Shown in pieces: positions 2,058-39,721 of a stretch of DNA of 64,000 bases (the stretch's first letter is position 1; the number at the start of each line of letters is the position of its first letter). Below the pieces are notes generated by a model. The model saw only the letters and a program-made list of their open reading frames with translations, had not been told where the DNA came from and searched no databases. The position numbers and the translations under genes were made by a program. Source of the DNA: Dyella subtropica (GTDB lineage: Bacteria > Pseudomonadota > Gammaproteobacteria > Xanthomonadales > Rhodanobacteraceae); contig NZ_JAPDPD010000001.1 in NCBI RefSeq assembly GCF_026283965.1, forward strand, positions 310,001-374,000, written 5' to 3'.

Positions 2058-3749
2058 ATGCGCATGGCACCACGCACCTTCCCCACCCGTCTCCTGACCG
2101 CCCTGATCTGCGCCGGCCTGACCTTCGGAGCCGGCGCCCAGGAACACACGGTCCGCCTGCCCGACCTGGGCAGCTCGGCCAACGCCCTGGTCTCCCCGCA
2201 GGAGGCGCAGGACTACGGCGCCGCCATGCTGCGGCAGATGCGGGCCATGGACATGGTGGTGGACGACGCCTTGCTGGACGACTACGTCAACGACCTGGGC
2301 TACCGCCTGGTCGCCAGCAGCGACAAGCCGAAAGATCATTTCTCGTTCTTCATCGTGAAGGACTCGGTGATCAACGCCTTTGCCGCACCCGGCGGCTATA
2401 TCGCGGTGAATTCGGGCCTGATCACCATCACCAACAGCGAAAGCGAACTGGCCGGTGTGATCGCCCACGAAATCGGCCACATCACCCAGAATCACCTGCA
2501 GCGAGCCTTCGAAGCGTCGAAAAAAGATGCGCCGTTGCTGGCCCTGGTGCTGCTGGGCGCTATCGCCGCTGGCGCGGGCGCCGGAGCGGGTGATGCCGGT
2601 GCCGCTGTGCTGATGAGTGGCCAGGGCTTGATGATGCAGCGGCAGATCAACTTCACCCGCAAGGACGAAGTCGAGGCCGACCGTGCCGGCATCCAGACCT
2701 TGGCCAATGCCGGCTTCGATCCCAACGCCATGGCCAGCTTCTTCGAGCGCATGCAGGACACCTTGCGCGCAGGCTCTGCTGGCGACCGCGATGTGCCCGA
2801 ACTGCTACAGACCCATCCGGTGACGTTGTCGCGCATCAGCGACGCCAAGTCGCGCGCCAGCGCGCTGGTCGCCGAGCAGAAGCAGCGCCCCGCCTCCCCC
2901 ACGCTGGTCAAGAGCCAGTGGGAAAAAAACACCGCGCCGATCGCTTACGTGAAGGATCCGACCGCTCTCAGCAGCCGCAACAGCAAGGGCGGCCTCGACA
3001 CCTATGCGCTCATGCGCGAACGCGTCCGGGTGTTGTCCGAAGACGCCCTGCAGCAGAGCACCTACTACGCCTCCAATCTGGAAAAGCAGCGCGGATTCGA
3101 CACACCGGCCAACCGCTACGGCTACGCGCTTGCTCTCACTCGCAGCGGTCGCGGCGCCAAGGCCATCGACGAACTGCAGCCACTGCTCAAGTCCAACCCT
3201 GACAACCAGATCCTGCAGCTCGCCCTGGCCGACGCCAAGCTCCAGGCCGGTCACCGTGCGGAAGCGCTTTCGCTGTACGCCGAGCTCAACCGGGAGTCGC
3301 CTCGCAACCACGCCATCGCCCTCGGCTATGCGAAAGCACTTACCGATGGCGGGGCCACCGCCGAAGCGGTCCAGGCCGCCGATATGCTGCGCCCCATGCT
3401 GGACAACGCCGTGGAGCCGGAGCTGTACCGCAGCTACGCTCGCGCCAGCGACAAGGCCGGTGACCCGGTTCGCGCCGGCGAGGCCTACGCCGACGCCAGC
3501 TACCTGTCGGGCCGCCCCTTCGACGCCATGGAGCAGCTCAAACGGCTGCTGAAACGCCCCGATTTGGACTACTACGCCCGCGCCCGCATCCAGGCACGCA
3601 TCAGCGACCTCACCCCCCTGGTGATGGAGCTACGCAAGCGCAAGGTGCAGACCGAAGACAACCCCGATGGCCACTCCCAGCAGCTGCGGAAGCCCTCGGA
3701 CAGCTGCACCGGCCGCCTCTGCTTCAACGTGATGGGCGACTCGCACTGA
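2058..3749 (+). CDS. bepA: BepA-like periplasmic M48 metalloprotease with TPR region
   Basis: 563-residue exported protease/chaperone of the BepA (YfgC) family, which assists outer-membrane protein and LptD assembly and degrades misfolded forms. Residues 1-28 form a signal peptide (RLLTALICAGLTFGAGAQ). The zinc site HEIGH is at 137-141 and the third ligand region DEVEADRAGIQTL follows at about 205. A Gly/Ala-rich segment (AIAAGAGAGAG) lies between them. The C-terminal half, from about residue 330, is an alpha-helical TPR domain, as in BepA. It is somewhat longer than the E. coli protein (487 residues). A short hairpin (ggcggg/cccgcc, 3757-3770) follows the stop. The gene is separate from the phoB unit downstream. 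Confidence 0.85.
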   Translation: MRMAPRTFPTRLLTALICAGLTFGAGAQEHTVRLPDLGSSANALVSPQEAQDYGAAMLRQMRAMDMVVDDALLDDYVNDLGYRLVASSDKPKDHFSFFIVKDSVINAFAAPGGYIAVNSGLITITNSESELAGVIAHEIGHITQNHLQRAFEASKKDAPLLALVLLGAIAAGAGAGAGDAGAAVLMSGQGLMMQRQINFTRKDEVEADRAGIQTLANAGFDPNAMASFFERMQDTLRAGSAGDRDVPELLQTHPVTLSRISDAKSRASALVAEQKQRPASPTLVKSQWEKNTAPIAYVKDPTALSSRNSKGGLDTYALMRERVRVLSEDALQQSTYYASNLEKQRGFDTPANRYGYALALTRSGRGAKAIDELQPLLKSNPDNQILQLALADAKLQAGHRAEALSLYAELNRESPRNHAIALGYAKALTDGGATAEAVQAADMLRPMLDNAVEPELYRSYARASDKAGDPVRAGEAYADASYLSGRPFDAMEQLKRLLKRPDLDYYARARIQARISDLTPLVMELRKRKVQTEDNPDGHSQQLRKPSDSCTGRLCFNVMGDSH

Positions 3750-3816
3750 GCATTCAGGCGGGCTCCCGCCCCATCCAACGCACGTTCACGGGGATTTTTC
3801 GTACCGATATTGTGAA

Positions 3817-3836
3817 ATGTCATCGCGACGTAACAT
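3817..3836 (+). promoter_or_regulatory. Possible Pho box upstream of phoB
   Basis: ATGTCAT-CGCG-ACGTAACAT resembles the PhoB consensus of two 7-bp repeats (CTGTCAT) separated by four bases. The first repeat matches 6 of 7; the second is degenerate. It lies about 50 bases before the phoB GTG start, where an autoregulatory Pho box is usual. This is a pattern match by eye only. Confidence 0.4.
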
Positions 3837-3887
3837 TGGACCGCTGCAATATTTGCGTCATAGGCCAACCCGAGCGGACCACATCGC

Positions 3888-4577
3888 GTGCACAAACGCA
3901 TACTGATCGTTGAAGATGAAGCATCGATCCGCGACATGGTCGCCTTTGCCTTGCGCAAAGCCGGCATGGACGCGGCCCACGCCGCCGACGCGCGAGCCGC
4001 CCAGATATCCATCGCCGAGCAGGTCCCCGACCTGATCTTGCTCGACTGGATGCTGCCCGGTACCAGCGGTCTCGAACTGGCTCGCCGCCTGCGCAAGGAG
4101 GAGCTGAGCCGGGAAATCCCGATCATCATGCTCACCGCCCGCGGCGAGGAAATGGACCGGGTCAACGGGCTCGAGGCCGGTGTGGACGACTACGTCGTCA
4201 AGCCGTTCTCTACCCGCGAACTGGTCGCGCGCATCAAGGCGGTGCTGCGGCGCAGCCAGGGCGACGACGGTTCCGGCATGGTCGAACTCGGTGGCCTGCG
4301 TATCGACGGCCCCGCCCATCGCGTGTTCGCCAGCGATGACGCGGTGCCAATCGGCCCCACCGAATACCGCCTGCTTTACTTTTTCATGACTCACCCGGAA
4401 CGGGTCTACTCCCGCGCCCAACTGCTCGACCACGTATGGGGCGGCAGCGTGTACGTGGAAGAGCGCACCGTCGACGTGCACATCCGCCGCCTGCGCAAGA
4501 CGCTGGAACCGTGGAAGCTCGACGACATGGTGCAGACCGTGCGCGGTGCCGGCTACCGCTTCTCAGCCAGCGTCTGA
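3888..4577 (+). CDS. phoB: Phosphate regulon response regulator PhoB
   Basis: 229-residue OmpR-family regulator that activates phosphate-starvation genes. The receiver domain (about 1-120) has the acidic pocket IVEDE at 7-11, the phosphoacceptor Asp53 in LLDWMLPG and the VVKPFS lysine motif. The C-terminal winged helix (about 130-229) ends in [16 protein letters not shown] and VRGAGYRF. Translation starts at GTG 3888-3890; the next residues [10 protein letters not shown] align with PhoB. phoR follows after 73 bases, so the pair is probably one transcript, possibly self-regulated through the Pho-box-like site upstream. The presence of ppk and ppx downstream supports the phosphate role. Confidence 0.93.
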
Positions 4578-4650
4578 TCCGGTTTGGGGGCTCGGCGGCG
4601 TTTGCCGATATGCTTGCTCGCCATTTTGGCGTCCACGGCTTAACTCCCTC

Positions 4651-5919
4651 ATGTCCCAGCCCTCCGACCGCTTCTGGAAACTGCCGGCCGCACTCGCGGC
4701 CGGCCTGGTTGTCGGTGGACTGCTGGGATGGCTGGCCGGGGGGCATGTCGCCACTGGCGTCGCGCTGGTCGCTTTCGCCGAAATCGTCTTGCTGCTGACT
4801 CGAATCCGTCATGTAACACGGCACATCATGCCGGCGAACCCCACTATCAGCCCCTTGCAACATGACCGCTTCATGACGCGCTCCCGTCGCATCGCTTCCA
4901 GTCTGCGCGATTTGCGCAGCGCCGCCGGCAGTCTGCCCGACGCCGTCGTGCTACTCGACAATGACCAACACGTGCGCTGGTTCAACCACGCTGCCGAAGA
5001 TTTGCTCGGCCTGCGTCGCCCCCAGGATCGCGGCACTGCGTTGCACGAGCGGATGGGCACCACCGAATTGGCCGGCTGGCTGCATGATGGCGCGCACGAG
5101 CCGCTCAACGACGTGATCGCCCCCGGCCATCCAAACCGGCACATCAATGTCACCCTGTTGCCGTTTGGCCGTCGCCAGCGCTTGCTGCTCGCCCGCGACA
5201 TCAGCCATCTGACCCGGCTTGAGCAGATCCGCCGCGACTTCGTGGCCAACGTATCGCACGAGCTGCGCACGCCACTCACCGTCATTCATGGCTATCTCGA
5301 GCTGATCGATCCGGAAGACGTTCCGGAACTGGCGCCCGTACTCGGCGAAATGCGTGCGCAGTCCAAGCGCATGGGCCAGATCGTGGAAGATTTGCTGACC
5401 CTGTCGCGCCTGGAAACCCAGGACCATGTGACCGACGAACGCGTGCCCATGACGCCCCTGCTGGCGACCATCCGCAAGGAAGCCGAGGCGCTGAGCCAGG
5501 GGCGCCACCACATCGCCATCGAATCCATCGCCGAAGCCGATCTGCTCGGTTCGCCCAAGGACCTGCACAGCGCGTTGTCCAACCTGGTGAGCAACGCCGT
5601 GCGCTACACCCCTACGGGCGGCAGCATCACCATCCGCTGGAAGCGCACGCCCGCAGGCGCCACGTATTCGGTCAGCGATACCGGCTTCGGCATCCCCGCT
5701 ACCCATCTGGCGCGATTGACCGAACGCTTTTATCGCGTGTCCTCCAGCCGCTCGCGCGACAGCGGCGGCACCGGCCTGGGCCTGTCGATCGTCAAGCACG
5801 TGTTGAACCTGCATCAGGCGCGACTGGAGATCGAGAGCGAACCCGGTCAGGGCTCGACCTTCTCGTGTTGCTTCGGCCACGAACGCTTACTGAAACCCGG
5901 CATGCAGGACGACGTCTAA
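4651..5919 (+). CDS. phoR: Phosphate regulon sensor histidine kinase PhoR
   Basis: 422-residue membrane kinase. Two hydrophobic segments lie at about 11-30 and 34-50, followed by a PAS-like domain (about 90-185). The HisKA box VANVSHELRTPLT has the phosphorylated His203. The ATPase N box is NLVSNAVRYTP, and the G boxes are SDTGFGIP and SGGTGLGLSIV. The short N-terminal anchor without a large periplasmic domain is typical of PhoR, which senses through the Pst transporter and PhoU. I choose ATG 4651 because the protein then starts with SQPSDRFWK followed by the first membrane segment; a longer frame opening at 4546 overlaps phoB and adds 35 residues of implausible sequence. Confidence 0.92.
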   Translation: MSQPSDRFWKLPAALAAGLVVGGLLGWLAGGHVATGVALVAFAEIVLLLTRIRHVTRHIMPANPTISPLQHDRFMTRSRRIASSLRDLRSAAGSLPDAVVLLDNDQHVRWFNHAAEDLLGLRRPQDRGTALHERMGTTELAGWLHDGAHEPLNDVIAPGHPNRHINVTLLPFGRRQRLLLARDISHLTRLEQIRRDFVANVSHELRTPLTVIHGYLELIDPEDVPELAPVLGEMRAQSKRMGQIVEDLLTLSRLETQDHVTDERVPMTPLLATIRKEAEALSQGRHHIAIESIAEADLLGSPKDLHSALSNLVSNAVRYTPTGGSITIRWKRTPAGATYSVSDTGFGIPATHLARLTERFYRVSSSRSRDSGGTGLGLSIVKHVLNLHQARLEIESEPGQGSTFSCCFGHERLLKPGMQDDV

Positions 5920-5929
5920 TCGCTGGCCC

Positions 5930-5956
5930 GTAGGAGCGCACAGGGTGCGCTCCTAC
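5930..5956. repeat. GTAG-type REP-like palindrome
   Basis: Perfect 11-bp inverted repeat, gtaggagcgca and its complement, around a 5-base loop. Elements opening with GTAG and forming one stem are the common REP class in Xanthomonadales and Pseudomonas and are mobilised by RAYT transposases in those groups. It sits between phoR and ppk and could also act as a weak terminator, although no T tract follows. Only this copy was seen in the window. Confidence 0.7.
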
Positions 5957-6055
5957 AAAGACCCGTGCGGCCTGGGTGAACAACCGCCGAGCAGCCCATC
6001 ACACTACGCGGCGCTGCCGCATGTGCTTCCTGGCGCTATCGGCCAGAATGATCTC

Positions 6056-8158
6056 ATGCGTCGTAAACCTGTCACATCGTCCCCCGTGATCGACCGAGCT
6101 GCCCCCGAGCTGTACCTCAGCCGCGAACTGGCCGCCCTCGAATTCAATTTCCGCGTACTCGCCCAGGCGCGCGACACACGCGTGCCGTTGCTGGAGCGCC
6201 TGCGCTACCTGAGCATCGTCGCCAACAATCTGGACGAATTCTTCGAGGTGCGCGTGGCGATGCTCAAGCATCACCACAGTTTCGGCTCGGCCGCGCCCGG
6301 ACCGGACGGGTTACCTTCCGGCGAGTTGCTCACGCGCATCCGCAAGCGTGTGCTGGACCTGGTCTCCGAGCAGTACGCCACCTGGCAGGACGAGTTGAAG
6401 CCGGCACTGGACGCCGAAGGTATCCACTTCCTCACGCGCGACCGCTGGAATGAACGCCAGCACCGCTGGCTGCAAGGCTACTTCGAAAATGAAGTGCTGC
6501 CGGTACTGTCGCCGCTGGGGTTGGACCCAGCGCATCCGTTCCCGCGCATTCTCAACAAGACGCTGAACATCGCCGTGGTGTTGAAAGGCCGCGACGCGTT
6601 CGGGCGTGAAGGCCACATGGCGCTGGTGCGCGCGCCGCGCTCGCTGCCACGCATCATCCGCCTGCCCAATGAAGTGTGCGGGCCGGGCGACCACTACGTC
6701 TTTCTCGCCGAGCTGCTGCAGGGTTTTGTCGACCAGATGTTCCCCGGCTTCAAAGTGGCTGGCTCGTACCAGTTCCGCGTTACCCGCAACAGCGAGCTGA
6801 TGGTGGAAGAAGCCGAGGTGGACAACCTCGCTCGCGCGCTCAGCGAGGAACTGCTGGGCCGCGGCTACGCCCGCCCGGTGCGACTGGAGATCGGCACCGA
6901 TTGCCCGAAGGCGATCGTGTCCATGTTGATCGCGAACTTCGAGCTGGAAGAGAGCGACGTCTACCGTTGCGACGGCCCGGTCAATATCATCCGCGCCGCT
7001 ACCATCTACGATGGCCTGGACCGTCCCGCGCTGAAATTCCCGCGTTTCACGCCCCAGCTACCTAAGGCCTTCGACGCCAGCAAGTGCAAGTTCGAAGTAC
7101 TGCGCGAACGCGACGTGTTGCTGCATCACCCGTATGAGTCGTTCGCCGCCGTGGTGGATCTGCTGCGCCAAGCTTCGCAGGATGCGGAGGTGCTGGCGAT
7201 CAAGCAGACCCTGTACCGCGCCGGTGCCGACACACCGCTGGTGGATCTGTTGGTCGAGGCCGCGCGCAACGGCAAGGACGTCACCGTGGTAATCGAGCTG
7301 CGCGCGCGTTTCGACGAGGAAGCCAACATCCGCCTTGCCACGCGTCTTCAAGAAGCCGGTGTGCAGGTGGTCTACGGCGTGGTGGGCTACAAAACCCACG
7401 CCAAGATGCTGCTGATCGTGCGCCGCGAAGGTGAGTTGCTGCGCCGCTATGTGCATCTATCCACCGGCAACTACCACCAGGCCAACAGCCGCGCCTACAC
7501 CGACATCGGCCTGATGACGGCCAACCCGGAGATCGGCGAGGATCTGCACAAGATCTTCCAGCAGCTCTCCGGGCTGGGTCCGATGATCCAGCTCAAGCGT
7601 TTGCTGCATTCGCCGTTCACGCTGTACAAGAGCGTGGCCGCCAAGATCGAGCGCGAAACAGCGCATGCCTTGGCCGGCCGACCGGCGCGGATCGTCGCCA
7701 AGCTCAATGCCCTGAACGAAGCACACGTGATCGAAGCGCTCTACCGCGCTTCGCAGGCCGGCGTGGAGATCGACCTGATCGTGCGGGGCGCCTGCACCCT
7801 GCGCCCGGGTCTGCCGGGCATCTCCGAGCGCATCCGTGTGCGTTCCATTGTCAGCCGCTTTCTCGAACACAGCCGCGTGTACTGGTTCGCCAACAACGGT
7901 GCGCCAGAGACTTACTGCGCCAGTGCTGACTGGATGGAGCGCAACCTGATGCGTCGCATCGAGGTGGCTTTCCCCATTCTCGACCCGGTCCTGGCGCAGC
8001 GCGTGTATGACGAAACCCTGGTCAATTACTTGGAAGACAACACCCAAGCCTGGTTGTTGGAAAGCGACGGTCATTACATCCGCGCCCAGCCGTCCGAAGC
8101 CGCGCCACACGACGCGCAGCAGTTCCTGCTGGACAAGCTCAGCCCGACGACGGCCTGA
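6056..8158 (+). CDS. ppk1: Polyphosphate kinase 1
   Basis: 700-residue PPK1, which polymerises the gamma-phosphate of ATP into inorganic polyphosphate. The N-terminal domain opens ELYLSRELAALEFNFRVL. The autophosphorylated histidine is His448 in GYKTHAKMLL, and the second catalytic histidine region is RYVHLSTGNYHQANSR. The phospholipase-D-like C-terminal domains include IDLIVRGACTLRPGLPG. The length fits PPK1 (about 690 residues). I start at ATG 6056 (MRRKPVTSS); the open frame reaches 5945 but would begin inside the REP-like palindrome. It is preceded by phoBR and followed after 90 bases by ppx, giving a phosphate-storage block. Confidence 0.93.
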   Translation: MRRKPVTSSPVIDRAAPELYLSRELAALEFNFRVLAQARDTRVPLLERLRYLSIVANNLDEFFEVRVAMLKHHHSFGSAAPGPDGLPSGELLTRIRKRVLDLVSEQYATWQDELKPALDAEGIHFLTRDRWNERQHRWLQGYFENEVLPVLSPLGLDPAHPFPRILNKTLNIAVVLKGRDAFGREGHMALVRAPRSLPRIIRLPNEVCGPGDHYVFLAELLQGFVDQMFPGFKVAGSYQFRVTRNSELMVEEAEVDNLARALSEELLGRGYARPVRLEIGTDCPKAIVSMLIANFELEESDVYRCDGPVNIIRAATIYDGLDRPALKFPRFTPQLPKAFDASKCKFEVLRERDVLLHHPYESFAAVVDLLRQASQDAEVLAIKQTLYRAGADTPLVDLLVEAARNGKDVTVVIELRARFDEEANIRLATRLQEAGVQVVYGVVGYKTHAKMLLIVRREGELLRRYVHLSTGNYHQANSRAYTDIGLMTANPEIGEDLHKIFQQLSGLGPMIQLKRLLHSPFTLYKSVAAKIERETAHALAGRPARIVAKLNALNEAHVIEALYRASQAGVEIDLIVRGACTLRPGLPGISERIRVRSIVSRFLEHSRVYWFANNGAPETYCASADWMERNLMRRIEVAFPILDPVLAQRVYDETLVNYLEDNTQAWLLESDGHYIRAQPSEAAPHDAQQFLLDKLSPTTA

Positions 8159-8248
8159 AAAACCGCGACATCCCGACCTGCGCCGGGCTGACGCGTCTGG
8201 TTCCGTGCGTGCGAGAATCCACTCTCATCTGCACGGAACGAGCCCCGC

Positions 8249-9766
8249 ATGAGCCAAGGCGATCAGATCCAGATCAAGGACGGCGAACTGATCGCCGCCG
8301 TGGACATGGGCTCCAACAGCTATCACATGGTGGTGGCGCGGGTGGAGCACGGCGAGCCGCGCGTGATCGACCGCCTGCGCGAAACCGTGCGCATGGCCGC
8401 CGGCCTGCGCGCCGACGGCACGCTCGACGCCGAACATCGCGCCCGCGCATTGAACTGTCTGGCCCGCTTCGGCCAACGCATTGCCGGTGTGCCGTCGATC
8501 CGCGTACGCGCCGTGGCCACCAATACCGTGCGACGACTGGCTTCGCCCCAAGCGTTCCTGACCGCAGCGGAGACCGCACTCGGCCATCCGGTGGAAATCG
8601 TCTCCGGCCGCGAGGAGGGCCGCCTGATCTTCCTGGGCGCCTCGCATGATTTGCCTGCGTCGCGTGAAAACCGGCTAGTGATCGACGTGGGCGGCGGCAG
8701 CACCGAGTTCATCATCGGCCGCGGCCTGGCCCCAATGCATACCGAAAGCGTGCAGGCGGGCTGTATTGCCTCCACTTTGCGTTTCTTTCCCGGCGGCAAG
8801 CTCAACCGCAAACGCTGGCAACGCGCCAGCAGCGAAATCGGCGTGCTGCTGCAGCAGTTCGCCGAGGACTATCGCGAAGCAAGCTGGGTAGAGGCCTTCG
8901 GCTCCTCCGGCACGGCCAAGGCGATCGGCTCGGTGGTGCAGGCCATGAAGTTCTCCGACGAAGGCGTCACGCCTGCGTCGCTCGCCTTGCTGCGCGACGC
9001 GCTGATCGACCAAGGGCAGATCAGCACCCTCAAGCTGCCCGGCCTGGCCGAGGATCGCGCACCGGTGATTGCCGGCGGCGTAGTGATCTTCGAGGCCGCT
9101 TTCGAAGCCCTGGGCATCGAGCGCCTGCGCGTGTGCGAAAGCTCGATGCGCGAAGGGCTGTTGTGGGACTTGCTGGGCCGCGCCGGCGGCACCGACCCGC
9201 GCACCGCCAGCATCGACGCGCTGGCCTCGCGCTACGGCGTGGACCGTGCGCAGGCACGACGTGTGGAATCCACCGCCCTGATGCTGTTCGATCAAGTCGC
9301 CAAGGCCTGGAAGCTGGACGGCGAGGCGCGCGAGTGGCTGTCGTGGGTGTCTCGCGTGCACGAGATCGGCCTGGCTATCGCGCACAGCCAGCATCACCAT
9401 CACGGCGCCTACATCCTGCGCCATGCGGATCTCGCAGGCTTCTCCCGGCAGGAGCAGCAATTGCTGGCTGCTGTCGTGGAGTCGCATCGCCGCAAGCCGG
9501 ACAAGGCGCAGTTCTCGGCCCTGCCGCAGCGCCACCGCACACTGGCCCGCCAGATCACTGCCCTGCTCCGTCTGGCCGTGCTATTCCGCCGCGCCCGTCG
9601 TGCCGAATCATTGCCGCAGATGCGCCTCGCAGCCACCACCCAGCGGCTGCGCCTGGCGCTGCCTGGCACTTGGCTGGAACAGCATCCGCTCACCGAGGCC
9701 GACCTCGAACAGGAGCAGGCTCCCATGTCGGAGCTTGGCCTGAGCCTCGCCCTTTCGGCCGTCTGA
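8249..9766 (+). CDS. ppx: Exopolyphosphatase
   Basis: 505-residue member of the Ppx/GppA family, which removes terminal phosphate from polyphosphate. The ASKHA nucleotide-binding motifs are clear: AAVDMGSNSYHMVVARV near the N-terminus, DVGGGSTEFIIG in the middle, and IAGGVVIFEA later. The C-terminal HD-like region contains HEIGLAIAHSQHHHHGAYI. The long C-terminus matches Ppx/GppA rather than the short Ppx2 form. GppA (pppGpp hydrolase) is a possible alternative, but the position next to ppk favours Ppx. An 8-bp inverted repeat (8201-8208 with 8231-8238) ends 10 bases before the start; its role is unknown. Confidence 0.9.
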   Translation: MSQGDQIQIKDGELIAAVDMGSNSYHMVVARVEHGEPRVIDRLRETVRMAAGLRADGTLDAEHRARALNCLARFGQRIAGVPSIRVRAVATNTVRRLASPQAFLTAAETALGHPVEIVSGREEGRLIFLGASHDLPASRENRLVIDVGGGSTEFIIGRGLAPMHTESVQAGCIASTLRFFPGGKLNRKRWQRASSEIGVLLQQFAEDYREASWVEAFGSSGTAKAIGSVVQAMKFSDEGVTPASLALLRDALIDQGQISTLKLPGLAEDRAPVIAGGVVIFEAAFEALGIERLRVCESSMREGLLWDLLGRAGGTDPRTASIDALASRYGVDRAQARRVESTALMLFDQVAKAWKLDGEAREWLSWVSRVHEIGLAIAHSQHHHHGAYILRHADLAGFSRQEQQLLAAVVESHRRKPDKAQFSALPQRHRTLARQITALLRLAVLFRRARRAESLPQMRLAATTQRLRLALPGTWLEQHPLTEADLEQEQAPMSELGLSLALSAV

Positions 9767-9859
9767 ATCATGCCGTCCATCAAATGGCCCGCTCGTTTTA
9801 AGCCTAGCCTCACTCCTGCCGCGTATGATGCTCCGATGCCCGACGCCGCCCGAACCGCC

Positions 9860-10576
9860 ATGCAACGATTCCTGCTCGCCGCCCTGCTGCTGATCCTGCC
9901 ATTCACGCTCGCTGCACAAGCCGTCAAACCAGCGGCCATGCCAGCAGTCCAGGCCCACCCACAGGTGGTGGTGCACACCTCGATGGGCGACGTCACCCTT
10001 GAGCTGTATCCGGACAAGGCGCCCAAGAGCGTTGCCAACTTTCTGCAGTACGTACGGGACGGCTACTACAGCAGCACCGTGATGCACCGGGTGATTGCCG
10101 GCTACATGGTGCAGGGCGGCCTGTACACCCGCGACCTGCAGCCCAAGCGCACCCGCTCGGCCGTGCCCAGCGAAGCGGACAACGGTCTTTCCAACCTACG
10201 CGGCACCATCGCTGTGGCGCGCGGAGCCGATCCGAATTCCGGCACGTCCCAGTTCTTCTTCAATCTGGTCGACAACCGTCGACTGGACTTCGTGGGCAAC
10301 CAGAGTGGCCTCACCTGGGGCTTCACCGTCTTCGGCAAGGTGGTGAAGGGCATGGATGTGGTCGACAAGATCGCCACCCTGCCCGTTCGCGCCCTCGGCC
10401 CGTTCGCCAATGACGTGCCCAACCCTCTGGTGATCATCAACGGCGCCAACGTGGTTGGCGAAGAAACCCCTGCTTCAGCCGCCACCAGCGCTGCGCCTCC
10501 TGCACCCGCCAAGATCGCGCCAGCACCAGCACCGGCCTCCAAGCCGGACAAGAAGCACAGCAAAACCAAGGGCTGA
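9860..10576 (+). CDS. Cyclophilin-type peptidyl-prolyl cis-trans isomerase, exported
   Basis: About 238 residues. An N-terminal signal peptide (RFLLAALLLILPFTLAAQA) directs it to the periplasm. The cyclophilin core follows: VVVHTSMGDVTLELYPDKAP, VMHRVIAGYMVQGG, GTSQFFFNLVDN and LTWGFTVFGKVVKGMDVVDKI. The catalytic HRVI and QFF motifs are kept. The tail of about 40 residues is rich in Ala, Pro and Lys and probably disordered. The start is uncertain: ATG 9860 or ATG 9836 both precede the signal sequence, and neither has a strong ribosome-binding site. The lpxH start is only eight bases after the stop, a pairing (ppi-lpxH) known from other gammaproteobacteria. Confidence 0.87.
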   Translation: MQRFLLAALLLILPFTLAAQAVKPAAMPAVQAHPQVVVHTSMGDVTLELYPDKAPKSVANFLQYVRDGYYSSTVMHRVIAGYMVQGGLYTRDLQPKRTRSAVPSEADNGLSNLRGTIAVARGADPNSGTSQFFFNLVDNRRLDFVGNQSGLTWGFTVFGKVVKGMDVVDKIATLPVRALGPFANDVPNPLVIINGANVVGEETPASAATSAAPPAPAKIAPAPAPASKPDKKHSKTKG

Positions 10577-10584
10577 TCCACCCG

Positions 10585-11316
10585 ATGCACACCCTGTTCA
10601 TCGCCGACCTGCATCTGGACGCCAGCCGCCCGCAGATCACCCGGCTATTCGAGGATTACCTCGCCAGCGGCGAAGCACGCCAAGCCGATGCGCTCTATAT
10701 CCTCGGCGACCTCGTCGAAGCCTGGATCGGCGACGACGACGATGCCGAGTTGCCGCAGCGCATCGCCCATGCGACCGGATTGCTGCGCGAGTCCGGCGTA
10801 CCGGTGTACTTCATGGTGGGCAATCGCGACTTCCTGCTCGGCGAAGACTTCGCTCGCCGCGCCGGCCTCACCCTGCTCGAGGACGGCACCGTACACACCC
10901 TGTACGGCCGCCCCACACTCATCATGCATGGCGACGTGCTGTGCACCGATGACATCGCCTACCAGGCCGTGCGCAAGCAAGTGCGCACGCCGGAGTGGAA
11001 GGCACAGATCCTGTCCATGTCATTGGCAGCGCGCCGCGCCTTCGCTGCCAAGGCGCGCGAAGACAGCCGCGCGCATACGGGCAGCACCATGGAGACCATC
11101 ATGGACGTGAATGATGGGGCGGTCGCCGCGGCGATGCGCCATGCCGGCGTGACGCGCCTGATTCATGGACATACCCATCGACCGGCCATCCATCGCTTCG
11201 ATCTGGACGGTCGGGAGGCCGAGCGGATCGTACTGGGCGATTGGTATGAGCAGGGGTCGGTGTTGCGGGTGACGGTGGAAGGAACAGAGTTGCGGGGATT
11301 GGCGCTAGGCGATTAG
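10585..11316 (+). CDS. lpxH: UDP-2,3-diacylglucosamine diphosphatase
   Basis: 243-residue calcineurin-like metallophosphoesterase of lipid A synthesis that cleaves UDP-2,3-diacylglucosamine to lipid X and UMP on the inner face of the inner membrane. All metal-binding motifs are present in order: FIADLHLDAS (8-17 region), ILGDLVEAWIGDDD, MVGNRDFLLG, IMHGDVLCTDD and RLIHGHTHRPAIH. The length matches LpxH (about 240). It directly follows the cyclophilin gene and is probably co-transcribed with it. Confidence 0.93.
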   Translation: MHTLFIADLHLDASRPQITRLFEDYLASGEARQADALYILGDLVEAWIGDDDDAELPQRIAHATGLLRESGVPVYFMVGNRDFLLGEDFARRAGLTLLEDGTVHTLYGRPTLIMHGDVLCTDDIAYQAVRKQVRTPEWKAQILSMSLAARRAFAAKAREDSRAHTGSTMETIMDVNDGAVAAAMRHAGVTRLIHGHTHRPAIHRFDLDGREAERIVLGDWYEQGSVLRVTVEGTELRGLALGD

Positions 11317-11428: not shown

Positions 11429-12364
11429 ATGGAGACCCCAGGCTTCAAGCAAAGGATCGCGCGCTACATAGGGCGTGCCCTGCGCCACCTGCTCTTTCTG
11501 GCTATCGCGGGTGCTGTCGCGCTTTGGGGTGCGGGCTTTGCCCTGACCCATCCAGCTCAGCGCGACGTCGGCCAACCGCCGCCAGACCTGCCTGCCCAGA
11601 CCATCGTCTTTCCGAGTGCTTCCGGGCAGCTTGTGCACGGCTGGCTTGTTCCCGGCATCAAGGGCCAGGGCGCCATCCTCCTTCTGCACGGAGTGCGCGC
11701 CAACCGGCTCAGCATGCTTGGGCGCGCGCGATTCCTTCACGCGTCCGGGTACGCGGTTTTGCTGATCGACTTTCAGGCCTCTGGTGAAAGTCCAGGGCAA
11801 GCTATCAGCTTCGGCTACCGAGAAGCAGGGGATATTGAAGGGGCTCTTCGATACCTGAGGGAGGCCGCACCGGGAGAACGCGTCGGTATCGTGGCAACCT
11901 CCATGGGCGGCGCAGCTAGCTTGCTCGCCGAGCCCTTGCCTGACGTCGACGCCATCGTGCTCGAACAGGTTTATCCCACGATAGAGCAAGCATTGAAGGA
12001 TCGGTTGAAGCTCCACCTCGGCGTGCCCGGGACATGGCTGGCGCCGCTCATGCTGGCGACATTGCCGATTCACCTGGGTATTTCACCAGCTCAGCTTCGG
12101 CCGATTGATCGCATTGGCAGGCTGCAGGCACCCAAGCTGCTTATCGCTGGCGATCAGGATCAACACACGCTGATCGACGAATCGCGTGCCATGTTTGAAG
12201 CTGCTGCGGAGCCGAAGGAGTTTTGGGTTGTCGAGGGGGCGGCGCATGTCGATTTGTATCGTTATGCGGGAGGGGCTTATGAGCAGCGAGTGGGCTGCTT
12301 TCTGGGGCGTTGGTTGCGGGATGAAGTGGCGAGCAGCAAGTGTGCTTTCGTGGCGAATCGCTGA
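11429..12364 (+). CDS. Membrane-anchored alpha/beta hydrolase
   Basis: 311-residue protein with one N-terminal hydrophobic segment (about residues 20-40), then an alpha/beta-hydrolase fold. The oxyanion strand is LLLHGVRANR (85-94). The nucleophile elbow is VATSMGG with Ser158, where Ala replaces the usual first Gly. The acid is probably Asp242 or Asp244 in LIAGDQDQHT, and the histidine is His273 in EGAAHVDLY. It resembles the uncharacterised membrane hydrolases related to BEM46/YfhR. The substrate is unknown. It stands alone, between lpxH and a repeat array. Confidence 0.75.
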   Translation: METPGFKQRIARYIGRALRHLLFLAIAGAVALWGAGFALTHPAQRDVGQPPPDLPAQTIVFPSASGQLVHGWLVPGIKGQGAILLLHGVRANRLSMLGRARFLHASGYAVLLIDFQASGESPGQAISFGYREAGDIEGALRYLREAAPGERVGIVATSMGGAASLLAEPLPDVDAIVLEQVYPTIEQALKDRLKLHLGVPGTWLAPLMLATLPIHLGISPAQLRPIDRIGRLQAPKLLIAGDQDQHTLIDESRAMFEAAAEPKEFWVVEGAAHVDLYRYAGGAYEQRVGCFLGRWLRDEVASSKCAFVANR

Positions 12365-12389
12365 TAGCAAAATCGCAGGCGACGCGCGG

Positions 12390-12936
12390 ACTTCGATGAA
12401 GCGCATCATGGCGTGAAGGGAGGGATTGTTCGGCCCATCCATGGGCCTCACCCCTACGCGCGTTGCGCTTCGGGGCCAGCCTGCGGCTGTCCTTGTCGTT
12501 CCAGACGAATTTGTCGAACCGGTGGGTTCGTCCACACCTCTCTCTCCGCCAGATACGCAAAACGCCCCTCCACTTCGATGAAGCGCGTCATGGCGTGAAG
12601 GGAGGGATTGTTCGGCCCATCCATGGGCCTCACCCCTACGCGCGTTGCGCTTCGGGGCCAGCCTGCGGCTGTCCGAATTCGTTCCTGACGAATTCGTCGA
12701 ACCGGTGGGTTCGTCCACACCTCATCTCTCCGCCAGATACGCAAAACGCCCCTCCACTTCGATGAAGCACGTCATGGCGTGAAAGGAGGGATTGTTCGGC
12801 CCATCCATGGGCCTCACCCCTACGCGCGTTGCGCTACGGGGCCAGCCTGCGGCTGTCCAAATTCGTTCCAGACGAATTTGTCGAACCGGTGGGTTCGTCC
12901 ACACCTCTCTCTCCGCCAGATACGCAAAACGCCCCA
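12390..12936. repeat. Three tandem ~183-bp repeats ending in tRNA-Ser 3'-end copies
   Basis: Units run 12390-12571, 12572-12755 and 12756-12936. Each starts acttcgatgaagc, contains the palindrome ggcccatccatgggcc, a second stem-loop around gacgaatt, the stem-loop cgaaccggtgggttcg, and ends in ctctccgccagatacgcaa plus aacgcccc. That last part equals, in inverted orientation, the acceptor 3' strand, CCA and downstream flank of the tRNA-Ser at 12958-13050. In units 2 and 3 the second stem is gaattcgt/acgaattc versus aaattcgt/acgaattt, a compensatory change. Small open frames across the array are by-products of the repetition and are not called as genes. Confidence 0.9.
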
Positions 12937-12972
12937 CTAGGGGGCGTTTTGCGTATCTGGCGGAGAGAGAGG
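12904..12972. repeat. 32-bp perfect inverted repeat overlapping the tRNA-Ser 3' end
   Basis: Positions 12904-12935 and 12941-12972 are perfect complements around the 5-base loop actag. The right arm includes the last 15 bases of the tRNA gene (CCA, discriminator, acceptor 3' strand and part of the T arm). On the minus strand this is immediately downstream of the tRNA and may act in termination, but a transcript would also let the tRNA 3' end pair with the copy. Confidence 0.85.
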
Positions 12973-13050
12973 GATTCGAACCCTCGATAAGGCTTTTGAC
13001 CCTATACTCCCTTAGCAGGGGAGCCCCTTCGGCCTCTCGGGCATCTCTCC
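12958..13050 (-). tRNA. tRNA-Ser (anticodon GCT)
   Basis: 93 bases including an encoded CCA (tgg at 12958-12960 on the plus strand). The acceptor stem GGAGAGA pairs with TCTCTCC, and the discriminator is G, as expected for tRNA-Ser. The anticodon loop CTGCTAA gives GCT, reading AGC/AGU codons. A long variable arm (GGGAGTATAGGG region) and the T loop TTCGAATC are present. It lies after csrA on the same strand, the classic alaS-csrA-tRNA-Ser order. Confidence 0.95.
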
Positions 13051-13081
13051 GTTTTTATTCCGCATCTCTGCGGAGCCGGCA

Positions 13082-13110
13082 AGGATACTGACCGGCGCGG
13101 TCGAGGTAAA
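13082..13110 (-). promoter_or_regulatory. Possible sigma-70 promoter of tRNA-Ser(GCT)
   Basis: Reading the minus strand, TTTACC (13110-13105) is followed after 17 bases by TATCCT (13087-13082). Each hexamer matches the consensus at 4 of 6. The predicted start is about 25 bases before the tRNA 5' end, and the site lies just after the csrA stop. Confidence 0.4.
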
Positions 13111-13122
13111 GCTTTTTGATCG

Positions 13123-13329
13123 TCAGTGTTCGCCGTTACCGCCGGAGTTGCCGCCATCCGGCTCGTGCTCGTTCTTGATCCGCTGATAGATCTCTTCGCG
13201 ATGCACGGCTACGTTCTTGGGCGCATTGATGCCGATACGCACCTGGTTGCCCTTCACGCCCAGGACGGTGACGGTCACCTCGTCGCCAATCATCAGGGTT
13301 TCACCGACCCTGCGGGTCAGAATCAACAT
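13123..13329 (-). CDS. csrA: Carbon storage regulator CsrA
   Basis: 68-residue RNA-binding post-transcriptional regulator, which binds GGA motifs in mRNA leaders. The sequence [18 protein letters not shown] through [19 protein letters not shown] contains the strand-1 residues (LTRR) and the strand-5 VAVHREEI that form the two RNA-binding faces of the dimer. The tail ([12 protein letters not shown]) is variable and Gly/Asn-rich. I start at ATG 13329, preceded by GGAG eight bases upstream; an in-frame GTG nine bases earlier is less likely. It follows alaS at 261 bases, with its own leader. Confidence 0.95.
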
Positions 13330-13486
13330 GTTTGCCACTCCATGAAAGCTATGTGGTCATAGGCCATCAGATGGTGAAACCTCACCCCTGAGCAACACCA
13401 TCTGTAGTTCGACGAACTGTCCATCGAAGGCCCTACCGCCTTCCCCGGCTCAACGGCAAGTTACCCTAAGGGACCCTCGCCGCCTA

Positions 13487-13511
13487 TCGGCACCGCAACA
13501 AACGGTGCCGA
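13487..13511. repeat. Short inverted repeat between alaS and csrA
   Basis: Nine-bp arms tcggcaccg and cggtgccga enclose a 7-base loop. It lies between the alaS stop and the csrA start on the minus strand and could be a weak alaS terminator or a csrA leader hairpin; there is no T tract. Nothing else was recognised in 13330-13590. Confidence 0.4.
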
Positions 13512-13590
13512 CATTCATCCGATACTAGCCGAGCGCAAGTGCCCTGCGCAATGCATCCGACCTGTGGTAAGAGGCCCGTTCACCTTGGTT

Positions 13591-16227
13591 TTAGCCGGCC
13601 AGGCGCCCGCCGATCCAGCCCGGCAAACCGGCCAGCAGCGCGGGAAGCTGCGCTGTGTCGGTACCGCCGCCCTGGGCCATGTCGGGGCGACCGCCGCCCT
13701 TGCCGTCGATCTGACTGGCCACGTGCGCCACTACATCGCCTGCCTTGACGCGCCCCAGCGCCTTGCCGTGTACGCCCGCCACCAGGGATACGCGGCCATC
13801 GACCGCGCCAGCGAGCAGGACCACACAATCCGCAAGCTGCTGCTTGAGCTGGTCGACGCTGTCGCGCAGTGCCTTAGCGTCCAGGCCCTCAAGACGCGCC
13901 GCCACGACCTTGATGCCGTCCACGTCATGCGCGGAGGAAGCAAGATCCGCGGTGGCCGAACCGGCCGCCTTGGCGCGCAGGGACTCCAGCTCGCGCTCGA
14001 GCTTCTTCTGCTTGTCGAGCAACTGACGCAGCTTCTCCACCACCTCGTCGCCGCTGGTGGAGAGCAGCTGGGAGAGTTCGCCCAGACGGCGCTCCTCGTC
14101 GACCACGTAGGCCAGTGCACCAGCACCCGTGACCGCCTCGATTCGGCGTACACCGGAGGCCACGCCGGCTTCGCTGACGATCTTGAACAGGCCGATGTCA
14201 CCGGTGTGGCCGACATGAGTACCGCCGCAGAGTTCGGTAGAGAACTCACCCATCTTCAAAACTCGGACCTCGTCGCCGTATTTCTCGCCGAACAGGGCCA
14301 TCGCACCGAAGTCGATCGCATCGTTGTAGCCCATGTGGTGCACTTCGGCCGGCACGTTGCGGCGCACCTCGGCATTCACGATGTCCTCGATGCGGGCCAG
14401 CTCCTCGTGGCTCATCGGCTTGAAATGGGAGAAATCGAAACGCAGGCGATCAGGCGCGACCAGCGAACCCTTCTGCGTGACATGCGCGCCCAGCACCTGA
14501 CGCAACGCGGCATGCAGCAAATGCGTGGCGGAGTGGTTGAGCACCGTGGACTGGCGCCGTGCGGCGTCGACGTCCGCTTCGACGCTGTCGCCGGTACGCA
14601 GTGGCTGTGCACCGTGCCAGCGCCCGGCATGACCGTGGAACACGCCACCCATTTTGAGCGTATTGATCACCTCAAAACGGCCGGCACTGTTCGACAACCT
14701 GCCTGTGTCGCCAATCTGGCCACCGGATTCGGCATAGAACGGGGTGCGATCGAGGATCACCAGGCCTTCGTCGCCCTCGGCAAGCTGCTCGACCTGCTTG
14801 CCGCCGCGCACGATGCCGACCACCTTGCTGCCCTGGCTCCACAAGGTTTCATAGCCTAGAAACTCCGTGGGCTTGAGCTGGCTGGCCAGCTCGGCCGGCA
14901 TTTGGCCCTTGGCTTCGAAGCGGCCGCCTTCGCGGCTGCGCTCCTGCTGTTCCTTCATGGCCTGCTCGAAGCCTTCCATGTCCACCATGAGCCCGCGCTC
15001 ACGCGCGATGTCGGCGGTGAGGTCGACCGGGAAGCCGTAGGTGTCGTACAGGCGGAACGCATCGGCGCCGGGGATGGTGCCGCTAGCCTTCAACGCAACC
15101 GCATCGAACAGGCGCATTCCATTTTCCAGCGTCTCGCCGAAGCGCCGCTCCTCCGTGCGCAGCGCCTCTTCCACGAAGGCCTGCTTGGCAGCCAGTTCCG
15201 GATACGCCTCGCCCATCTCCTCGACCAGCGGCTTCACCATCTTCCAGAAGAAGTCGCCGCGCACGCCGAGCATCCAGCCATGACGCAAAGCCCGGCGGAT
15301 GATCCGGCGCAGCACATAGCCACGACCTTCGTTGGACGGAAGCACACCGTCGACGATAAGGAACGAGCAGGCGCGAATGTGATCCGCGATCACGCGCAGT
15401 GACTTATTGCCCAAGTCCTTGGTGCCAGTGAGCTGGCTCGCCACGCGAATCAGGTGCGCGAACAGGTCGATCTCGTAGTTGGAATGCACGTGCTGCAGCA
15501 CGGCGGCCAGGCGCTCCAGGCCCATGCCAGTGTCCACGCACGGTGCCGGCAGCGGTGACAGCGTGCCGTCGGGCGCGCGGTCGAACTGCATGAACACGAG
15601 GTTCCAGATCTCGATATAACGGTCGCCATCTTCGTCCGGCGAACCGGGCGGGCCACCGGCGATCTCCTCGCCGTGGTCGAAGAAGATTTCGGTGCAAGGA
15701 CCGCAAGGGCCGGTATCGGCCATCTGCCAGAAGTTATCGGAAGCGTACGGCGCGCCCTTGTTGTCACCGATGCGCACGATGCGTTCGGCAGGCACGCCAA
15801 CTTCCTGGTTCCAGATGCCGTAGGCCTCGTCATCCGTGTGGTAGACGGTGACCCACAGCTTGTCCTTGGGCAGCTTGAAAACGTCGGTCAGCAGCTCCCA
15901 GGCGTAACGGATCGCGTCGCGCTTGAAATAGTCACCGAACGACCAGTTGCCCAGCATCTCGAAGAAGGTGTGATGGCGGGCGGTATAACCCACCGAATCG
16001 AGATCGTTGTGCTTGCCACCGGCACGCAGGCAGCGCTGCACGTCGGCCGCGCGCGCGTACGGCAATTTCTCGCTGCCGAGAAACACGTTCTTGAACTGCA
16101 CCATGCCCGAGTTGGTAAACAACAGGGTCGGGTCGCTGGCCGGCACCAGCGAGCTGGAGGGCACGATGGTGTGGTCCTTGGAGCGGAAATAGTCGAGGAA
16201 GGCGGAGCGGATTTCTGCAGTTTTCAT
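13591..16227 (-). CDS. alaS: Alanyl-tRNA synthetase
   Basis: 878-residue class II synthetase that charges tRNA-Ala and edits mischarged Ser and Gly. The catalytic domain opens [20 protein letters not shown] with motif 2 region [18 protein letters not shown]. The editing domain carries the zinc-site signatures [12 protein letters not shown] and [13 protein letters not shown]. The C-terminal region has the coiled coil ([20 protein letters not shown]) and the C-Ala domain ending [13 protein letters not shown]-like motif ([15 protein letters not shown]). The start is ATG 16227; a frame opening at 16257 adds ten atypical residues. The order recA-recX-alaS-csrA is standard for gammaproteobacteria. 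Confidence 0.96.
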
Positions 16228-39628: not shown

Positions 39629-39721
39629 GGAGAGGTGTCCGAGTGGTTGAAGGAGCACGCCTGGAAAGTGTGTATACGGCTTATCCCCGTATCGCGGGTT
39701 CGAATCCCGCCCTCTCCGCCA
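39629..39721 (+). tRNA. tRNA-Ser (anticodon GGA)
   Basis: 93 bases with encoded CCA. Acceptor stem GGAGAGG/CCTCTCC with discriminator G, anticodon loop CTGGAAA giving GGA (reads UCC/UCU), long variable arm (GTATACGGCTTATCCCCGTATC region) and T arm GCGGGTTCGAATCCCGC. It lies directly upstream of the SRP RNA gene. Confidence 0.95.

Follow-up and report, generated by a model that had tools for sequence, protein, structure and literature searches.

The tandem repeats of the Escherichia coli tyrT locus have been known for decades, and are reportedly treated in older work by Egan and Landy and by Bosl and Kersten. They consist of tandem units of ~178 bp located 3' of tRNA-Tyr, and are represented in Rfam by RtT (RF00391), which is annotated as a small RNA (sRNA) in E. 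coli and has copies in 4680 of 5426 E. coli genomes, at 1 to 9 places in each. RtT is named as having a tandem GA motif where PMC7657543 refers to it, and a 175-bp VNTR at the rtT RNA in Salmonella is mentioned in PMC2658671. In a search of the literature outside subscription journals, we recognised no paper as describing the repeats reported here, beyond passing mentions of RtT.

Other catalogued families invite comparison. AaHKsRNA22 (RF02902, Aggregatibacter sRNA 22) has the status of an sRNA gene in Rfam rather than that of a tRNA-linked repeat, and sX4 (RF02223) is a proteobacterial sRNA. Rickettsia palindromic elements (RPEs) belong to another bacterial class and include insertions in RNA genes. 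RPEs are described in PMC10969869 as small, palindromic elements that lie within unrelated protein genes and encode part of them.

Here we describe three repeat units beside a tRNA-Ser(GCT) gene in the window, by which we mean the whole 64,000-nucleotide stretch of Dyella subtropica DNA that was analysed. This array is probably an RtT-type tRNA-linked repeat, a relative of the E. coli tyrT repeats, and its anatomy is shared by loci at several other tRNAs and at tmRNA.

Results

Layout of the array

The array spans 12390-12935 and is made of three units of ~183 bp each, arranged head-to-tail (Tandem Repeats Finder: 3.0 copies, period 184, 95% matches). Its tRNA side leads to csrA, with alaS beside it, and its opposite flank is occupied by an alpha/beta hydrolase gene in convergent orientation, with its end at 12364. 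The features are as follows.

13126..13329, minus strand: csrA, upstream of the tRNA (Pfam CsrA, E 1.6e-26)
12958..13050, minus strand: tRNA-Ser(GCT), the intact host gene (ARAGORN; Rfam tRNA)
12941..12957, minus strand: trailer arm A, GATACGCAAAACGCCCC, immediately after CCA (sequence)
12936..12940, no strand: 5-nt loop of the 32-bp hairpin (inverted-repeat comparison)
12919..12935, plus strand: trailer arm B of unit 3, the inverted copy of arm A
12904..12918, plus strand: unit 3, inverted copy of the acceptor 3' strand and CCA of the tRNA
12888..12905, plus strand: unit 3, inverted T-arm relic ggtgggttcgtccacacc
12881-12887, minus strand: unit 3, direct T-loop start GGTTCGA, adjoining the inverted T-arm relic
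12788..12886, minus strand: unit 3, hairpin module HP1-HP4, GTTCGAC...AATCCC (model R1, E 1.7e-22)
12775..12793, minus strand: unit 3, decayed direct copy of the tRNA 3' end, AATCCCTCCTTTCACGCCA (sequence; comparison with L026, L164 and L186)
12766..12920, minus strand: unit 3 according to the class-wide model R2 (E 6.9e-29)
12725..12752, plus strand: unit 2, inverted tRNA end and arm B, 28-bp match to the tRNA
12604..12702, minus strand: unit 2, hairpin module (R1, E 1.3e-22)
12591..12609, minus strand: unit 2, decayed direct copy of the tRNA 3' end (sequence)
12582..12736, minus strand: unit 2 according to R2 (E 1.1e-27)
12537..12568, plus strand: unit 1, inverted tRNA end and arm B, 32-bp match to the tRNA
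12422..12519, minus strand: unit 1, hairpin module (R1, E 5.4e-18)
12409..12427, minus strand: unit 1, decayed direct copy of the tRNA 3' end (sequence)
12400..12553, minus strand: unit 1 according to R2 (E 8e-21)

A first-pass annotation of this DNA had reported that three ~183-bp units each carry an inverted 3' end of tRNA-Ser(GCT), and that the last of them forms a 32-bp perfect inverted repeat with the tRNA. Both observations are confirmed. A 28-nt tail, TCTCTCCGCCAGATACGCAAAACGCCCC, is common to 3/3 units without a single difference and is the reverse complement of the tRNA 3' end and trailer; copy 1 (12537-12568) and copy 3 (12904-12935) each make a perfect inverted repeat of 32 bp with the tRNA and trailer (12941-12972), while the inverted repeat of copy 2 with the tRNA measures 28 bp. 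Copy 3 and the tRNA are the nearest inverted pair, separated by a loop of 5 nt. The segment previously read as a decayed T arm is an inverted T-arm, and directly adjoining it is the start of a direct T-arm (GGTTCGA, minus strand).

Every unit in the window contains, in addition, a direct copy of the tRNA end that is decayed and has its T-loop split by a hairpin module of ~99 nt (GGTTCGA, module, AATCCC), the identity to the tRNA, counted by eye, being 14/19 in unit 3 and 15/19 in units 1 and 2. Read along the tRNA strand, the tRNA end is followed by the hairpin of the trailer, an inverted tRNA end that extends as far as the T-arm, GGTTCGA, hairpins HP1, HP2, HP3 and HP4, and then AATCCC with the remainder of the direct tRNA end. 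The direct copy, decayed in the window, is intact or nearly intact at loci L026, L164 and L186, and in L164 a trailer hairpin and an inverted end of its own come after it; the unit can therefore be defined as tRNA end, hairpin, inverted end and module.

Three open reading frames run through the repeats, at 12083-12718 (minus), 12463-12765 (plus) and 12792-13091 (plus), the last of which also crosses the tRNA. The first has no Pfam match, and all three are probably spurious gene calls. Matches of Rfam miRNA families to the hairpin were taken as chance, caused by the long perfect stem.

Comparison with RtT and other catalogued families

No RtT match was found in window positions 12000-13500 at E<=1, the gathering cut-off of the family being 45 bits; the E. 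coli tyrT-tyrV-rttR repeats score 133-138 bits with the same model. Because they fall below the Rfam cut-off, the window units are best termed an RtT-type variant rather than members of RF00391. The copies collected across the class (see below) are likewise matched by the RtT model over its full length at sub-threshold scores (L314 at 43 vs 45 bits; L323, L240 and others also below).

The relationship is clearer from models of the new copies. R2, built from 22 loci that all score below the RtT cut-off and lie in genomes from outside the window's order, matches all four E. coli K-12 tyrT repeats at rough E-values of 9e-10 to 8e-8 in a 2.8-kb search that placed the tRNA-Tyr genes at E 0.045; over the 64-kb window at E<=0.1 its matches are confined to the three units (E 7e-29 to 8e-21). 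R1, a covariance model from 33 copies whose E-values are equally rough, gives weak matches to three E. coli repeats (E 0.002-0.03) and scores the fourth at E 0.48.

The E. coli K-12 locus itself reads as an inverted tRNA-Tyr end, GGGGAAGGATGAGAAGCTTCG, then AAGGTTCGA, the core hairpins and AATCCTTCCCCCACCACCA. Both loci therefore have tandem units 3' of a tRNA (~178 bp there, ~183 bp behind tRNA-Ser here) with an inverted tRNA end, GGTTCGA, a hairpin core and an AATCC...CCA direct tRNA end, so that a direct copy of the host tRNA 3' end, CCA included, is present in every unit, albeit decayed in the window. They differ in three respects: the hosts found here are tRNA-Ser, tRNA-Gln and more, whereas the E. 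coli repeats stand behind tRNA-Tyr; the NGGA loops described below are absent from the E. coli repeats; and the perfect 32-bp pairing with the tRNA is not seen at the E. coli locus.

The AaHKsRNA22 model matches one class-wide copy, L323, above its cut-off (45 vs 39.8 bits), and L240, L311, L289 and L244 below it. The sX4 model spans tRNA-Ser and the downstream hairpin at L308:391-582 and L244:34-198, every match being below the cut-off and probably covering only the tRNA and hairpin part; sX4 may be a family that is part tRNA and part RtT-type element.

Copies in the Dyella genome

Searching the genome and its relatives for the unit, as the first-pass annotation had proposed, located it at four tRNAs, namely tRNA-Ser(GCT) with three copies, Ser-TGA with two, Ser-CGA with one and Gln-CTG with one diverged copy, and in 30 of 60 relatives, some matched over the tRNA-end stretch only; a single further match elsewhere in the genome is 23 nt long. 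Units without a tRNA-like end, which that annotation would have taken as a sign of chance adjacency, do occur, but only as distant relatives (27 weak matches, 23 of them inspected), and all close copies (7/7) are tRNA-linked.

A downstream hairpin that reaches 12-15 nt into the tRNA, with arms of 29-32 nt, is present at only 4 of 51 tRNA rows, a number that includes one tRNA-Trp entered twice and one overlapping odd pair. The four long-hairpin tRNAs (Ser-GCT, -TGA, -CGA and Gln-CTG) are exactly the four module carriers, a coincidence with a chance of 4e-6, and the long hairpin is therefore not due to chance. At all four the inverted copy matches its own tRNA, as exemplified by GTCTCCCAGCCA at Gln. 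The window also holds tRNA-Ser(GGA) at 39629-39721 (plus), which is without the unit and has only a short downstream hairpin; several relatives have the unit at Ser-GGA.

The weaker R1 matches (n=27, E 2e-6 to 1e-3) are dispersed. The 23 loci inspected (L137-L159) are REP-like and share with the tRNA-linked units the model, the hairpin order and, in nearly all, the GGA loops; they differ in being mostly joined to REP/BIME sequence of the TGTAGGAGC type and in that no tRNA end was seen at any of these 23 loci. One of them, L146, is flanked by inverted ACTTTCTCTTT/AAAGAGAAAGT.

Copies in the family

At E<=0.001, 152 of 197 family genomes contain a match to R1, a count that includes the Dyella genome itself and takes in the dispersed type, and a tRNA-Ser lies near the copy in 26 of the 29 best family loci inspected. 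The association between hairpin and module was counted over 56 distinct tRNA/tmRNA genes on 58 stretches, fetched for a matching unit or its tRNA end. Among these, hairpins extending at least 10 nt into the tRNA occur 20 times with the module and once without it, and shorter hairpins 20 times with it and 15 times without (Fisher p 0.002), so that 20 of 40 module-bearing tRNAs in relatives have less than 10 nt of pairing; long pairing therefore accompanies the element without being required by it. The one long hairpin without a module match, in L113, has a truncated module start, and L108 has a module and no inverted end. L037, L122 and L123 have a trailer palindrome with the inverted end absent or nearly absent and the module unmatched.

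Several arrangements in relatives are more elaborate. In L174, L177, L180 and L181, more modules follow 3' of the first unit of tRNA-Ser arrays, in the opposite orientation and back to back with direct ones. In L103, L104 and L105 (genomes G007, G023 and G018), a module lies between near-identical short repeated segments on stretches where no tRNA was found. In genome G001 (L129, about 2600-10750), an insert of ~8.4 kb has tRNA-Ser(TGA) and its module on one side and, on the other, a displaced copy of that tRNA's 3' end. The insert encodes a 1514-aa protein, helicase-like by eye, and further open reading frames, and is possibly defence cargo.

Unit ends and the host tRNA

Among 205 module rows, 80 have a same-strand tRNA or tmRNA ending at most 230 nt upstream, which gave 77 distinct tRNA/tmRNA-module pairs. 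For the inverted end the score is 29.2 with the own tRNA vs 21.6 with permuted partners, and for the direct end 25.8 vs 17.3, none of 5000 permutations being as high in either case; the excess for the own tRNA holds within tRNA-Ser only and within non-Ser only. Single pairs vary. The inverted end scores above all 100 shuffles in 58 of the 77 pairs and does not in 19, and when tRNAs are lumped by amino acid, the own tRNA is best for 62/77 inverted ends, with another better in 9/77 and 6 ties, and for 54/77 direct ends, with another better in 21 and 2 ties. Both unit ends thus match the local host tRNA on average, with single loci noisier. The earlier suggestion of repeated capture of a tRNA end, or of a tRNA-derived repeat family, was essentially right, given this host match and the recurrence of the arrangement at tmRNA and at tRNAs for Ser, Gln, Arg, Pro, Glu and Tyr.

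The hairpin module

The core of the element is a palindromic sequence of ~80-105 nt with four hairpins, the stems of which are mostly Watson-Crick paired. In the 33 copies, 91.2% of 972 stem cells are paired vs 79.0% after shuffling, changes on both sides of a stem number 125 vs 32, and the covariation score is 0.338 vs 0.130. The 972 cells comprise 875 Watson-Crick pairs, 11 G-U, 16 A-C and 70 other mismatches, which fall mostly in the outer HP4 pairs. Counts of G-U and A-C cells are 11 and 9 in 49 further family copies, and 7 and 4 in 24 dispersed copies. The near-equal rarity of both argues for a DNA hairpin or two-strand constraint rather than selection on one RNA strand.

GGA or NGGA is found in the HP1 loop of 32/33 copies and in the HP4 loop of 32/33, and GGAC in the linker of 32/33. 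In the window's order, and in most of the class-wide copies examined, the outermost two hairpins of the core each have an NGGA loop. The conserved GGA loops suggest recognition by some factor.

Copies across the class

At E<=1e-8, R1 detects the module in 78 of 369 class genomes (66 of the 314 good ones). Fifty-nine stretches chosen among the best R1 matches, several of them sharing a genome, hold 92 matches and 85 distinct copies, of which 37 have the flanks of a split T-loop, with GTTYGA to the left and AATC or a similar sequence to the right. The core usually lies 3' of ..GA on one strand, most often at GGTTCGA^A in the T-loop of a tRNA copy; the preceding motif is often TCGA or TTGA and is not constant, and insertions carry about one extra base. 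Insertions into T-loops include L231, L233, L238-L241, L243 and L244. In copies of tRNA-Ser, the D-loop is interrupted in L235, L242 and L320 and the anticodon loop in L291 and L299, an intact tRNA-Ser following the split copy in L242, L291 and L299. The host is tmRNA in L247 and L311. Among the copies listed, removal of the module in silico restored a tRNA recognised by ARAGORN in one, L244.

Protein genes also carry the module. At two loci of genome G355, L234 and L284, it forms an in-frame insertion of 25 aa relative to two plasmid-borne homologues without it. This recalls RPEs, in that two proteins carry an in-frame insertion with empty-site homologues, although the likeness concerns the wider family and not the window copy, and is one of character.

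In genome G459 (L231/L271, contig 120), the sole tRNA-Glu(UUC/TTC) found is interrupted in its T-loop by ~120 nt including a module. The loci of 30 of the 37 matches in this draft genome were typed, and no Ile-GAT or Ala-TGC was among the tRNAs found; an rRNA-spacer copy may for this reason be missing from the draft. We do not claim a tRNA intron in G459, where a second tRNA-Glu(UUC) may have escaped assembly, and consider it very improbable that the core is removed from tRNA precursors in some genomes. The interrupted gene is nevertheless unexplained by an account in which the split copy is always extra, unless the draft misses a further copy.

Discussion

We think it fairly likely that the array is an RtT-type palindromic element acting at the DNA level, next to which the end of the host tRNA was duplicated, once in inverted form, before the whole was amplified in tandem. 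Here we infer both the mobility of the core and the duplication step of the host tRNA end. The core would be mobile, or copied to new places, and would behave as an inserted DNA element that usually enters 3' of ..GA, a step offered by T-loops. Insertion into a T-loop would destroy the tRNA, and in a needed tRNA the element would survive only where the target end had been duplicated; the loci seen mostly have a whole tRNA, the split copy being extra. Duplication probably proceeded by hairpin-primed template switching at the trailer palindrome and T-stem, which would leave one copy inverted, as is suggested by inverted copies with tight turn-arounds (e.g., GAACCT-ATT-AGGTTC in L238). Unequal recombination between direct copies would have multiplied the units, as their tandem arrangement suggests. 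The inverted copy beside the trailer may stay identical to the tRNA through the same hairpin copying, or through selection as a two-way terminator. If transcripts read through, the tRNA 3' end is predicted to pair with the inverted copy (z -8.5), and it is possible that such pairing could affect tRNA maturation. Some results weigh against the favoured reading: long pairing is lacking at half of the module-bearing tRNAs in relatives, L113 has the long hairpin with just a truncated module start and L108 the module with no inverted end, the host match fails in a number of single pairs, and 70 of the 972 stem cells are mismatches other than G-U and A-C. The conserved GGA loops point to recognition by some factor and are missing from E. 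coli RtT, the dispersed copies show no preferred strand relative to genes, the tRNA-Glu(UUC) gene of G459 is itself interrupted, and the Y1 searches described below yielded no mobilising enzyme.

Four alternatives were weighed. The first, which we regard as unlikely, is a functional RNA made from the tRNA strand, a read-through or trailer RNA whose GGA loops bind CsrA/RsmA as a sponge downstream of csrA. The near-invariant GGA loops and linker, the strong covariation, the neighbouring csrA, the annotation of RtT as an E. coli sRNA and the placement of the GGA loops on the same strand as the tRNA, in the first copy behind a tRNA, all speak for it. The stem statistics favour no RNA strand, however, and the dispersed copies have no consistent sense: in the 22 usable of 23, the gene lying upstream with respect to the GGA strand, as predicted by a simple script, shares its sense in 11 cases and opposes it in 11, and between tandem genes the split is 2 same to 9 opposite. 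No promoter or canonical terminator appeared in a scan of 12300-13600. The strand evidence and the lack of GGA loops in E. coli RtT led us to reject a CsrA sponge as the main reading.

Slightly less probable still is that selection has favoured a strong hairpin working in both directions between the tRNA and the convergent hydrolase gene, with the inverted end serving as an extended terminator and the tandem units neutral. A need for good pairing on both strands would fit the scarcity of G-U and A-C, and the trailer palindromes of L037, L122 and L123 exist without a module match. Yet the U-tract has only four residues, the same scan found no terminator, the relatives L020 and L091 have copies without a T run, and the direct split copy, the module and the loop insertions elsewhere are left unexplained.

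We give an equally low probability to a REP- or IS200/IS605-like element that a Y1 (RAYT) transposase would move as single-stranded DNA. In its favour are two terminal hairpins that share a loop motif, the absence of strand bias in the stems, and insertion on a fixed strand, with about one extra base, 3' of a short motif that is, however, not constant. Against this, no PF01797 match was found at E<=1e-5 in the Dyella genome (G000) or in G518, both module carriers, and in six other genomes 18 of 19 Y1 loci had no module match at E<=1, one having a weak match nearby. Mobilisation by Y1/RAYT was rejected since no partner gene was found.

The least probable of the four, a scar of integrase-type elements using tRNA 3' ends as attachment sites, which the first-pass annotation had offered, could draw on the direct tRNA end that bounds the unit from T-loop to CCA like an attR and on the G001 insert beside a displaced tRNA end, but is not supported, given the inverted orientation of the copy on which it was based, the ~180-bp units without a gene of their own, and the same core with its GA^A step in D-loops, anticodon loops and protein genes. 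Inspection by eye of the ORFs that overlap 8-18 kb in the window, and of those of at least 120 aa in the G001 insert, revealed no recognisable integrase.

Beyond the DNA-level palindromic element of the RtT type that we favour for the array, the copies elsewhere lead us to propose, tentatively and with rather more reserve, a family of short, palindromic and mobile DNA elements found across the class Gammaproteobacteria, specialised for tRNA loops and tolerated there because the target end is re-made in inverted and direct form. The E. coli tyrT (RtT) repeats, AaHKsRNA22 and the dispersed REP-like repeats of Rhodanobacteraceae would be its descendants. The E. coli tyrT repeats, which already have an Rfam family and an sRNA gene name, gain an anatomy that can be parsed and many relatives at other tRNAs and tmRNA, and with these in hand their origin becomes testable. 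The findings also urge caution, as some of the sRNA families in catalogues, like many small proteins that have been predicted, may represent parts of a single inserted element, and the array offers a natural system for inverted duplication beside essential tRNA genes.
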